Positions 2,203-5,173 of a stretch of DNA of 5,173 nt are shown one piece after another. The stretch is from Anaerolinea sp. (lineage in GTDB: Bacteria > Chloroflexota > Anaerolineae > Anaerolineales > Anaerolineaceae). The number at the start of each line of letters is the position of its first letter. Position 1 is the stretch's first letter. Location of the stretch: contig JARKOV010000098.1 of NCBI GenBank assembly GCA_029975965.1, positions 1 through 5,173 on the forward strand. Reading direction: 5' to 3'. The notes under the pieces were generated by a model. It ran no database searches. It was given only the letters and a program-made list of their open reading frames with translations, and was not told where the DNA came from. A program made the position numbers and the translations under genes.

Positions 2203-2351
2203 GATAGCTTCTCACCCAGACCAGACAGACACGACCACTTAAGGTGTGTCATTCTGGTCAGCCAGATAACTGCTTCATCACATCCTATACCGTTTCGGAT
2301 TGCCGTATCTGGCCGTCCAATCAAGCTGTCATCTCACAGGCAGCTTTTTGG
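2203..2351 (+). promoter_or_regulatory. Candidate riboswitch or attenuator: closed three-way junction competing with a terminator hairpin
   Basis: GATAGCTT (2203-2210) pairs with AAGCTGTC (2323-2330) over eight positions, one G-U. This stem would enclose two hairpins. The first spans 2219-2259: GACCAGA/TCTGGTC outer stem, GACAC/GTGTC, then ACC/GGT around loop ACTTAA. The second spans 2261-2313: GCCAGATA perfectly paired with TATCTGGC. Joining strands are 8, 1 and 9 bases. AAGCTGTC is also the 5' arm of the terminator-like hairpin at 2323-2349, so the two states exclude each other. A third option, TCTGG-TCAG-CCAGA (2253-2266), would break both hairpins. The predicted logic is that a stabilised junction leaves the operon on. 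No known riboswitch class was recognised; all pairings were found by eye, without energy calculation. Confidence 0.45.
2317..2351 (+). terminator. Terminator-like hairpin inside the transporter leader
   Basis: AAGCTGTC (2323-2330) pairs with GGCAGCTT (2339-2346) around an 8-base loop, with one G-U pair; the 3' arm runs into five Ts (2345-2349). An outer CCAA/TTGG (2317-2320 with 2348-2351) can extend the stem but would use up the last Ts. It sits about 250 bases into the transcript and 125 bases before the permease gene, where premature termination would switch the operon off. The T-run is short and the stem moderate, so leaky termination is expected. Confidence 0.5.
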
Positions 2352-2475: not shown

Positions 2476-4203
2476 ATGAATCGTGAGCGGCTGTTCCGTG
2501 TCCCTATGGTTGTTCGCCAGCGCTCCCTGCTGGCGGATGTGATTATCCTGCTCGTGTTGGCGGTGGTGCTTTACCTGGGCGTCCGCCTGGCGCTGGATAC
2601 GCCGGCTATCATCCAAGGCCCGGAAATCAGCCATGACCTCGCCGCCTTACCCTACTACACCCTCCTCTCTCTCGGACGCATGCTGGCGGCTTACCTGCTA
2701 TCGCTGACCTTCTCAATCAGCTATGGGTATCTGGCTGCCCACAACCCACGCGCCGAACGCTGGCTGATGCCGATCCTGGATATCCTCCAGTCCGTGCCAA
2801 TCCTGTCCTTCCTGCCGATCGTCCTGCTGAGCCTGATTGCCATCCTGCCCCAGGGCCTCGCCATTGAGCTGGCTTCGATCATCCTGATCTTCACCAGCCA
2901 GGCCTGGAACCTGACCTTCAGCTTTTACCAATCGATGACCACGATTCCCAGCGAATACCGCGAGGCAGCGGCCGTGTTCCGCTTCAGTCGCTGGCTGCGT
3001 TTCAAAAACGTGGAGCTTCCTTTCGCCAACGTGGGGCTGATCTGGAACAGCATGATGTCCTGGGCCGGGGGATGGTTCTTCCTGATGGCGGCGGAAATCT
3101 TCACCCTGGGCGACCGCGACTTTCGCCTGCCAGGGCTGGGCGCCTTTTTGCAAACGGCTGCCAACGAGGGCGATACGAGCAACTTGCTGATCGGCATCGG
3201 CGTGCTGGTTCTGGTCATCATACTGCTCGATCAGTTCGTCTGGCGGCCCTTGTTGGCCTGGGCAGAACGCTTCAAAGTATCCCAGGTGGAAAGCGAGATT
3301 CCCGCCACCTCCTGGTTTCTGGATAGCCTCTCGCAATCGCGGCTGGCGCACTTCATCGGGCAGCAGTTGAATCGATTGAGCAAGCAACTCGATCGCGTTT
3401 TCAGCCGCCAGCCCGAAATGATCCCCAGCCTGGAATCGGCAGAACCCGCGCCAAAACGTACCTGGCGCAGTTGGATCGTGCCAGCAATGGTCGGGGTGGT
3501 GATTGCGTATGGCGCTTTTCGGGCGCTGGAGCTTTTCCTCACCTTGCCGGTAGCAATCTGGCCCCAGATCGCCCTGGGCGCGGGGGCGACTTTTCTGCGA
3601 GTCGTGATTGCGCTGCTCATCGCTCTCGCCTGGACGATCCCGGTCGGCGTGCTCATTGGGACCAACGCGCGAGCCGCGGCCTTGCTCCAACCGGTGGTCC
3701 AGATTACTGCCTCTGTCCCGGCGACTGCCCTCTTCCCGGTGTTGTTGCTGGGATTGGTGGGCCTGCCCGGCGGCGCGAACCTCGCTGCAATCCTGTTGAT
3801 GCTCCTCGGCACGCAGTGGTATCTGCTGTTCAACATCATCGCCGGGGCATCGGCTATCCCGCAGGACCTCCAGTTCACCAGCGCGCTGTTGCGCGTACGC
3901 GGCTGGCGGCGCTGGCGCGTCCTGATCCTACCCGCGCTGTTCCCCTACATTGTCACCGGCCTGATTACCGCCAGCGGCGGCGCCTGGAACGCCAGCATCG
4001 TGGCCGAATATACCCACTTTGGCGGGCAGACCAGTCAAGTGACCGGCCTGGGCGCGCTGATCACCTCGGCCACCGCCAAAGGCGACTATGCGCTGCTGCT
4101 GGCTTCTACCCTGACCATGATCGTCATGGTCGTACTGATCAACCGTCTGGTCTGGCGGCGCTTATACCACCTGGCCGAAGTGCGCTTCCGGATGGACCAA
4201 TAA
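2476..4203 (+). CDS. Fused two-domain ABC transporter permease, NitT/TauT type
   Basis: This 575-residue inner-membrane protein carries both permease halves of an ABC importer in one chain. Half one (about 18-262) has hydrophobic segments near 18-40, 63-88, 98-124, 128-145 and 236-252. Its ATPase-coupling loop begins EYREAAAVF (160-168) and ends in ELP (180-182). Half two (about 333-565) repeats the plan, with coupling loop 464-488 ending in LILPALFP (483-490). Internal duplication is visible: LPGLGAFLQTAANEGD (218-233) matches VTGLGALITSATAKGD (522-537), and QFVWRPL matches RLVWRRL. A polar linker (263-332) joins the halves. Both coupling loops are degenerate: the first lacks the usual glycine after EAA, the second lacks EAA. 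The partner is the ATPase gene 17 bases downstream. Relatives include nitrate, sulfonate and thiamine-precursor importers; the substrate here is unknown. Confidence 0.93.
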   Translation: MNRERLFRVPMVVRQRSLLADVIILLVLAVVLYLGVRLALDTPAIIQGPEISHDLAALPYYTLLSLGRMLAAYLLSLTFSISYGYLAAHNPRAERWLMPILDILQSVPILSFLPIVLLSLIAILPQGLAIELASIILIFTSQAWNLTFSFYQSMTTIPSEYREAAAVFRFSRWLRFKNVELPFANVGLIWNSMMSWAGGWFFLMAAEIFTLGDRDFRLPGLGAFLQTAANEGDTSNLLIGIGVLVLVIILLDQFVWRPLLAWAERFKVSQVESEIPATSWFLDSLSQSRLAHFIGQQLNRLSKQLDRVFSRQPEMIPSLESAEPAPKRTWRSWIVPAMVGVVIAYGAFRALELFLTLPVAIWPQIALGAGATFLRVVIALLIALAWTIPVGVLIGTNARAAALLQPVVQITASVPATALFPVLLLGLVGLPGGANLAAILLMLLGTQWYLLFNIIAGASAIPQDLQFTSALLRVRGWRRWRVLILPALFPYIVTGLITASGGAWNASIVAEYTHFGGQTSQVTGLGALITSATAKGDYALLLASTLTMIVMVVLINRLVWRRLYHLAEVRFRMDQ

Positions 4204-4220: not shown

Positions 4221-5173
4221 ATGGACTCCAAGACCACCTTGCTCCGCGTCGACAAAGTCTCTCGTGATTATGGTACGGGCGAGCGCCGGTTTACGGCAGT
4301 CAAGGATATCAACTTGACTCTGCAAGCGGGTGAGTTCGTGGCCCTGCTAGGCCCGTCCGGCTGCGGCAAAAGCACCCTGCTGCGCATGATCACCGGCCTG
4401 ATTGCCCCAAGCCAGGGCACAGTCTTCTACCGCGATAAGCCGGTAATAGGCGTCAACCCGCATACCACCATGGTCTTTCAGTCTTTCGCACTCTATCCCT
4501 GGCTGAGCGTCCTGGGCAATGTGGCCCTGGCCCTACAGGCCAGAGGGATTCCCACGGATGAAAGCCAGCAGCGCGCGATCAAGCTGATCGACCTGGTGGG
4601 CATGGACGGCTTCGAGAATGCGTACCCACGTGAATTGTCCGGCGGGATGCGCCAGAAAGTCGGCTTTGCACGGGCGCTGGCCGTGGAGCCGGAGATGCTG
4701 TGCCTGGACGAGCCGTTCAGCGCCCTGGACGTGCTGAGCGCCGAGGCCCTGCGCGGCGAGCTGCTGGAATTGTGGACCAACCAGCGGCTCCCGATTCAAG
4801 CCATTCTGATGGTCAGCCACAACATCGAGGAAGCAATCAGCATGGCCGACCGGATCGTGGTCATGGACAAGGAACCGGGCCGCATCGTCACCGAGTTTCC
4901 GGTCAACCTGCCTCGTCCGCGTTCCCGCACACAGCCGGGCTTCGAAGCCCTGATGGACCGCATCTACGCCGCCATCGCCGGCCGGACCGAACCGGAAGCG
5001 CTGGAAGTCGGCACCGCTCCCGGCGCGCCAGGCCAGACCAGGCTTTTGCCCCCATCTTCGGTGAACGCCCTGGCCGGTATGCTGGAACATCTCAATGAAG
5101 CGGAGGGTAAACACGACATCTACCAGCTCGACCACGATCTGGAGATCGACATGGAAGACCTGGTGCATACCAT
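4221..5173 (+). CDS. ABC transporter ATP-binding protein, NitT/TauT type with C-terminal AAA-associated region (partial)
   Basis: This is the ATPase that powers the preceding permease from the cytoplasmic face. The frame is open to the window end (317 codons, no stop). All nucleotide-binding motifs are intact: Walker A GPSGCGKST (44-52), Q-loop FQSFALYPW (86-94), signature LSGGMRQ (139-145), Walker B MLCLDEP (159-165), D-loop SALD (167-170) and H-loop histidine 200. After a linker (about 240-278), VNALAGMLEHLNEAEGKHD (281-299) and the following residues look like the start of the AAA_assoc_C domain (PF09821 from memory), a helical, possibly ligand-sensing region on some NitT/TauT ATPases. GGAG (4209-4212) lies 8 bases before ATG 4221. 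The nearer ATG at 4214 is out of frame and soon stops. No promoter separates it from the permease, so the two are co-transcribed. Confidence 0.93.
   Translation, partial: MDSKTTLLRVDKVSRDYGTGERRFTAVKDINLTLQAGEFVALLGPSGCGKSTLLRMITGLIAPSQGTVFYRDKPVIGVNPHTTMVFQSFALYPWLSVLGNVALALQARGIPTDESQQRAIKLIDLVGMDGFENAYPRELSGGMRQKVGFARALAVEPEMLCLDEPFSALDVLSAEALRGELLELWTNQRLPIQAILMVSHNIEEAISMADRIVVMDKEPGRIVTEFPVNLPRPRSRTQPGFEALMDRIYAAIAGRTEPEALEVGTAPGAPGQTRLLPPSSVNALAGMLEHLNEAEGKHDIYQLDHDLEIDMEDLVHT

Follow-up and report, generated by a model that had tools for sequence, protein, structure and literature searches.

Ribosome-mediated attenuators of the trp type carry an upstream open reading frame (uORF) followed by alternative pairings that end in an intrinsic terminator. 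To our knowledge, the sensing of Mg2+ by how hard an acidic peptide is to translate has been described only in enterobacteria. In Escherichia coli and Salmonella, the Mg2+ transporter gene mgtA is preceded by mgtL, a short uORF whose peptide has acidic residues early on; the RNA forms alternative structures, and efficient mgtL translation keeps the transporter gene off. The accessible part of PMC11282234 describes ribosome drop-off at the EPDP of MgtL under low Mg2+, which lets mgtA be transcribed, and, like the accessible part of PMC11552253, action through Rho; the latter text treats as not fully settled whether Mg2+ acts directly on the RNA or through mgtL translation. For mgtQ of the Salmonella mgtB gene, a tiny ORF with the acidic residues Asp2 and Glu5, the accessible part of PMC8092293 reports that acidic codons 2 and 5 raise mgtB translation, poor translation of the ORF freeing the downstream gene by stem exchange. 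The M-box (ykoK) Mg2+ riboswitch (RF00380) is an aptamer for which a covariance model exists.

The window analyzed here (the whole stretch of 5,173 nt) contains a GNAT/SCP2 gene on the minus strand, an Hsp20 gene, a leader, and the genes of a two-domain ABC permease and an ABC ATPase. The permease gene (2476–4203, on the plus strand like all features below) encodes 575 aa with two family matches to BPD_transp_1 and is preceded by the ribosome binding site AGGAGGT (2464–2470), which was found by eye and scored as Shine-Dalgarno (SD)-like. The ATPase gene (4221–5173), recognized from the sequence, runs past the window end. Databases name this kind of permease NitT/TauT, and its relatives are abundant, with all 8000 of 8000 scored candidates reaching E ≤ 1e-30. 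The near-consensus promoter proposed by the first-pass annotation was found as a sigma-70-type site at 2067–2094 (TTGCCA-16-TATAAT, with TG ahead of the −10), matching the consensus at 11 of 12 positions. Contig JARKOQ010000025.1, from an Aggregatilineales MAG (locus L001), matches the window almost completely, at 99.8% identity with 11 mismatches and a single gap across 5174 columns. Just 5' of the permease ribosome binding site, position 2460 is A in the window and C in the L001 contig (ATACGC versus ATCCGC).

The first-pass annotation had also described one strand shared by a junction stem and a terminator, and this architecture held up. GATAGCTT at 2203–2210 (segment 2, the 5' strand of the junction stem), AAGCTGTC at 2323–2330 (segment 3), GGCAGCTT at 2339–2346, and five T at 2345–2349 were all present, and by eye AAGCTGTC forms eight pairs, one of them G-U, with either outer strand. 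Segment 3 can thus serve in the junction stem or as the 5' arm of the terminator, whose 3' arm, segment 4 (AGGCAGCTT, 2338–2349), runs into TTTTT; sequence and pair probabilities point to segments 2, 3, and 4, and comparison with shuffles to segments 2 and 4. The two hairpins claimed inside the junction, 2219–2259 and 2261–2313, both appeared in the minimum free energy (MFE) structure. The fold of 2195–2360 reached −54.3 kcal/mol, against −35.1 ± 3.3 in 200 shuffles (z −5.79), and that of 2200–2349 gave z −4.72. The junction stem was dominant in RNA that stops at 2335, with a mean pair probability of 0.92–0.97, while in RNA 2137–2349 the pair probability was 0.94 for the terminator and 0.02 for the junction. 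The fold and these probabilities support a competition between antiterminator and terminator ahead of the transporter operon. Against shuffles of 2190–2218, the pairing of segments 2 and 3 gave p ~0.012. With 8 pairs, two of them using U's of the tract, the terminator hairpin reaches a modest −10.1 kcal/mol, and a simple terminator scan did not list it.

Several further features of the leader were seen. A long palindrome follows the terminator at 2350–2428 (GGCATCTATCC...GGATAGGTGCC, with central AGCTTAAG, by eye), and a similar element, CTATCCGTAAACCC...GGGCTTAAGCCC...GGGTTTACGGATA, occurs at L005. Since that element is missing at the same place in the relative L004, as judged by eye, the palindrome may have arisen by insertion of a REP- or MITE-like element. 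The leaders of the window (2311–2317), L008, and L009 have GCCGTCC in common, with GGCGCAGCCGTCC in L008 and L009; by eye, GCCGTCC could pair with GGACG at the uORF start, and the window MFE structure contains such a pairing. A 14-nt near repeat, TTCGGATTTCCATA (2154–2167) and TTCGGATTGCCGTA (2294–2307), connects the uORF and the second hairpin.

The uORF itself, overlooked by the earlier annotation, sits between the promoter and the junction. It spans 2137–2178 (MDDSDSSDFHRLP-stop, 13 codons) and is recognized from its sequence and from acidic leaders at other loci; so are, from sequence and codon bias, its acidic segment DDSDSSD (2140–2160) and an AGU serine at codon 6 (2152–2154). The end of the uORF, AGGCTGCCT at 2167–2175 (segment 1), can pair with segment 4, the duplex of 2167–2175 with 2338–2346 reaching −15.1 kcal/mol (shuffling 2101–2198 gave p 0.006, and shuffling 2152–2192 gave p 0.0015). 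The stem of segments 1 and 4 encloses that of segments 2 and 3, so both can coexist. As in leader-peptide attenuators, a short ORF separates the promoter from the structural gene. In silico, the terminator and the antiterminator exclude each other, with one antiterminator strand inside the uORF, and the peptide has the early acidic residues of the MgtL/MgtQ type (D2, D3, D5, and D8). Of the initial reading as an ON riboswitch, the competition between structures stands, while a ligand-binding riboswitch is displaced as first choice by the uORF and the pairing of segment 1 with the terminator 3' arm; these two features point to ribosome-mediated attenuation.

We consider it probable that the leader is a ribosome-controlled transcription attenuator similar to MgtL and MgtQ, proposed to sense low Mg2+ through translation of the uORF, and that the transporter belongs to a Mg2+ regulon. 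In this model, the antiterminator would consist of the 2:3 stem (2203–2210 with 2323–2330) and the 1:4 stem (2167–2175 with 2338–2346) nested around it, and the terminator of the 3:4 pairing. When the uORF is translated to its end, the ribosome would cover segment 1, segment 4 would displace segment 2, and transcription would stop. When the ribosome pauses or drops off at the acidic, AGU-containing start, segment 1 would be free, the 1:4 stem would close over the 2:3 stem, and the permease-ATPase operon would be made. A shortage of intracellular Mg2+ would be what slows the ribosome, in line with the proposal for E. coli MgtL; as a member of the regulon, the transporter may import Mg2+. In calculations on these conformers, the terminator was favored by 3.8 kcal/mol with no ribosome and by 10.4 kcal/mol with 2163–2190 blocked (ribosome at the stop codon), whereas the antiterminator was better by 1.8 kcal/mol with 2137–2163 blocked (ribosome on the acidic codons), in keeping with an operon that is off after full translation and on upon early pausing. 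We judge predicted energies for RNAs of 200 nt to carry an uncertainty of several kcal/mol, as much as two of these three differences. Plain loss of the ribosome leaves the terminator favored in these energies, so the model needs a junction stem that forms early and is held by segment 1.

Compared by features, since peptides this short do not lend themselves to homology searches, the window differs from mgtL in having DDSDSSD with an AGU codon, a predicted intrinsic terminator, and an ABC permease. It resembles the trp-type attenuators in its uORF and alternative pairings leading into a terminator, but it has no run of codons for a single amino acid and its antiterminator would be two nested stems. 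Unlike mgtQ, which controls translation initiation, the window has no standout SD-sequestering helix (z 0.11). Sequestration of the SD by an anti-SD after the uORF was also rejected as a general rule, being significant in 6 of 38 permease leaders (L023, L029, L030, and L073 among the six) and in 0 of 10 mgtE leaders; at some loci it is clear by eye.

If such leaders serve Mg2+ supply, they would be expected also ahead of known Mg2+ transporters, for which mgtE genes provided the test. From 200 permease loci, 149 upstream regions were retained after those with no hit, no start codon, less than 150 nt upstream, or a duplicate were dropped; from 90 mgtE loci, 89 were retained, L234 having no usable start. 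The control genes, drawn from the same loci, were script-called ORFs of 250 aa or more rather than annotated genes. uORFs beginning M[DE][DE] preceded 24 of the 149 homologous permeases (20 shuffles: mean 2.35, maximum 7). For control genes the count was 6 in 354, and still 6 within the 224 whose 250 nt upstream were mostly ORF-free (Fisher p 5e-9 and 6e-6, respectively, relatedness ignored). Counterpart motifs with basic, aliphatic, amide, or hydroxyl residues were not enriched in the permease set. Upstream of mgtE, 10 of 89 regions carried M[DE][DE] uORFs (shuffles: mean 1.20, maximum 3), with Fisher p 2e-4 against all controls and 0.004 against the 224, again with relatedness ignored; related leaders count as independent throughout. 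In this set the control motif M[NQ][NQ] was also above shuffles (3 vs 0.75). Because it was the permease set that first revealed the acidic motif, independent testing comes from the mgtE set alone. Because related peptides precede known magnesium transporters, the leader may sense low Mg2+ through translation instead of small-molecule binding. For corA, acidic leaders were found in 0 of the 18 scorable loci among 30, the other 12 having failed the simple gene finder.

Leaders of the permease set include MDDYPSSKRCPALL (L140), MDDYPSSQRCPT (L132), MDDSPSSQRCPALV (L186), MDDNSSHPKKFSSIIAVLW (L128), and MDDGPGHSPGCRLTVIPRH (L008), with looser relatives carrying DPDHST or HSST, and those of the mgtE set include MDDSSQQFQNEHATLW, MDESSQGTRYN, and MEESSSPPSPGQ. 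Operons joining mgtE and the permease have MDEGPATSGLD at L052 and, at L062 and L072 (Chloroflexus islandicus), MDSSHSRQRQ with one acidic residue. At most of the 149 loci no acidic leader was seen, the majority of the 68–72% homologues among them; these, the closest permeases in the genomes searched, have no acidic leader or a different one. Permeases with 74–77% identity (P0002, P0003, and P0005) are encoded on metagenome contigs. A DNA pattern for MDDYPS/MDDSPS gave one match (G123) in 396 class genomes, a sample without the genomes in which such leaders had been seen, most of which stemmed from the order-level search. Among the matches listed by a literature search, none concerned such acidic leaders in Chloroflexota.

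Codon comparison was made for codons 2–9 of nine permease leaders plus five pairs, excluding the HSST and DSD sets, whose codons are not alignable without gaps. In frame, 69 of 162 differences were synonymous, compared with 27 of 139 and 26 of 160 when the two other frames were read; this in-frame excess suggests, at the level of sequence, constraint on the leaders as peptides. Of 52 leaders tried by hand, L060, L126, and L261 were without a hairpin, leaving 49 curated leaders (36 permease, 13 mgtE). In 38 of 48 leaders, the 85 nt upstream of the uORF contained a promoter-like site that agreed at 9 or more of 12 positions, the mean being 9.7 matches versus 7.3 in shuffles.

Complementarity between the 3' part of the uORF and the terminator recurs in relatives, as in CCGGTTCGA/TCGAACCGG (L023), CTGGTTCG/CGAACCAG (L038), CGGTTGATG/CATCAACCG (L073), and GGTTGAAG/CTTCAACC (L035, Thermanaerothrix daxensis), the last extending over the stop codon. 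A pairing matrix was built from 23 of the 49 leaders, in 16 groups, each with a GC-rich hairpin and a T-rich tail whose bounds were set by eye. With one representative for each of the 16 groups, a leader's own uORF-end/terminator pairs averaged −29.4 kcal/mol versus −24.1 kcal/mol for all pairs, and 0 of 20000 permutations were as good. In only 8 of 23 loci was a hairpin's own leader the top-ranked one, and L029, L039, L149, L049, and L073 came mid-field or lower. For the window hairpin, its own leader was second best of 23, and four other hairpins bind the window leader better. The pairings of the window itself are predicted from thermodynamics and the family pattern.

Magnesium transporters and switches recur around the permease. 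At 18 of the 149 loci, mgtE (13, with L057 and L077 by 31%-identity matches), mgtC (3), or corA (2) lay within ~4 kb of it, a raw count without a control count, in which 16 of the 149 loci had less than 1.2 kb of upstream sequence. Neighbors were checked with Pfam at L072, L021, L052, L193, and L197, and corA came from a PF01544 search. In the class, mgtE (PF01769) was present in 119 of 249 genomes, and 17 M-box riboswitches were found in 14 of 249. Nine of the 17 lie 0.1–2.4 kb upstream of a permease homologue on the same strand (G104, G116, G124, G142, G169, G212, G231, G232, and G242), the M-box in G134 is divergent beside a permease homologue, and two precede mgtE matches (G186:C121 and G209:C257). 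The nine homologues share 43–45% identity with the window permease in eight cases (G231 being a fragment), which form one branch, and 58% in G116. An Rfam scan of mgtE loci gave an M-box in 0 of the 40 scanned of 90. The downstream gene is a Mg2+ transporter in the mgtE set, and the window permease is linked to Mg2+ by association alone; a literature search offered nothing useful on direct assignment of its substrate. Mg2+ is inferred as the signal at the window because of this regulon. The first-pass annotation had suggested that the leader senses the transported ligand or a related metabolite; Mg2+ acting on translation is likelier as the signal than the anion implied by the NitT/TauT name.

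Other elements were noticed in these neighborhoods. Rfam matches outside the leaders of selected loci were fluoride riboswitches, tRNA, and M-boxes. The fluoride riboswitches (RF01734) lie 2–5 kb upstream of the permease at L023 (698–758), L038 (883–943), and L049 (Anaerolinea thermolimosa; 3884–3946), and in our own reading of the sequence a few loci have a CrcB-like ORF among the neighbors. At L151 and L192, translated pieces upstream of the permease resemble, also in our reading, the C-terminal end of Nramp-type transporters; PMC4072509, as far as its accessible part indicates, deals with a Mg2+ transporter related to Nramp.

The M-boxes upstream of homologous operons, being true Mg2+ riboswitches, also bear on whether the three-way junction (2203–2330) itself binds a metabolite or Mg2+ and blocks the terminator without a ribosome, for which its strong fold and the clean exchange between the 2:3 and 3:4 pairings would speak as well. 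We regard this as unlikely. The window does not match the M-box covariance model: its Rfam scan gave no family at or above the gathering score, in line with the first-pass statement that no known class fits, and up to E 10 only three chance-level matches, all outside the leader and none an M-box. Leaders of ten homologous loci gave none at gathering level either, and an M-box scan of the window's genome (G001) was without a match. A search of that genome for a second leader copy returned only four chance-level matches, and blastn and nhmmer across the 149 permease and 89 mgtE upstream regions returned a long leader match only in its own contig, L001; the best other match was 21 nt at the uORF start (L186, E 0.04). 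A riboswitch would also leave the uORF and its pairing with the terminator unexplained.

Ribosome-controlled attenuation could in principle report something other than Mg2+, and the codon usage of the leaders bears on this. In the first 15 codons of the 49 curated leaders, 52 of the 117 serine codons are AGT, whereas among the 1330 serine codons of the permease genes the share is 10%; 39 of the 49 have at least one AGT there, and the share drops to 3 of 37 in codons 16–30. Among strict M[DE][DE] leaders, AGU makes up 20 of 45 serine codons in the 24 of the permease set and 11 of 24 in the ten of the mgtE set, compared with 11% (permease set) and 16% (mgtE set) in other uORFs of the same regions. 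As far as we know, serine richness and AGU are no part of the MgtL picture. The serine-rich leaders with their strong AGU bias, and a four-segment logic like that of amino-acid attenuators, would suit a leader peptide that responds to the level of charged tRNA (serine or aspartate) or to translation slowing down in general. This seems quite improbable to us, however, as the associated genes and switches concern Mg2+ transport rather than serine or aspartate metabolism and acidic residues at positions 2–3 recur in two gene sets. That the region is instead a fortuitously structured intergenic stretch with a spurious short ORF, as the lack of covariation behind the window stems, the unrelated upstream regions of most nearest homologues, and the modest terminator might suggest, is very improbable given a fold at z −5.8, acidic uORFs enriched in two gene sets over shuffles and control genes, and a promoter at the expected place.

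We know of no description for MgtL of AGU wobble reading as part of a sensor. More tentatively than for the window itself, we suggest that in Chloroflexota, and perhaps some neighbors, widespread acidic leaders with a conserved AGU may act as a ribosome-based Mg2+ gauge before mgtE and the two-domain ABC permease, that this permease could be an unrecognized class of Mg2+ uptake system, governed by M-boxes in sister lineages, and that the G-U wobble reading of AGU may be part of the sensor. If so, Mg2+ sensing by translation of an acidic peptide would be widespread also in a distant phylum, and an orphan NitT/TauT-like permease would gain a role in Mg2+ supply. Riboswitch and leader peptide would then be interchangeable means of control, and the AGU preference raises the testable question of whether low Mg2+ slows wobble decoding beside acidic residues.
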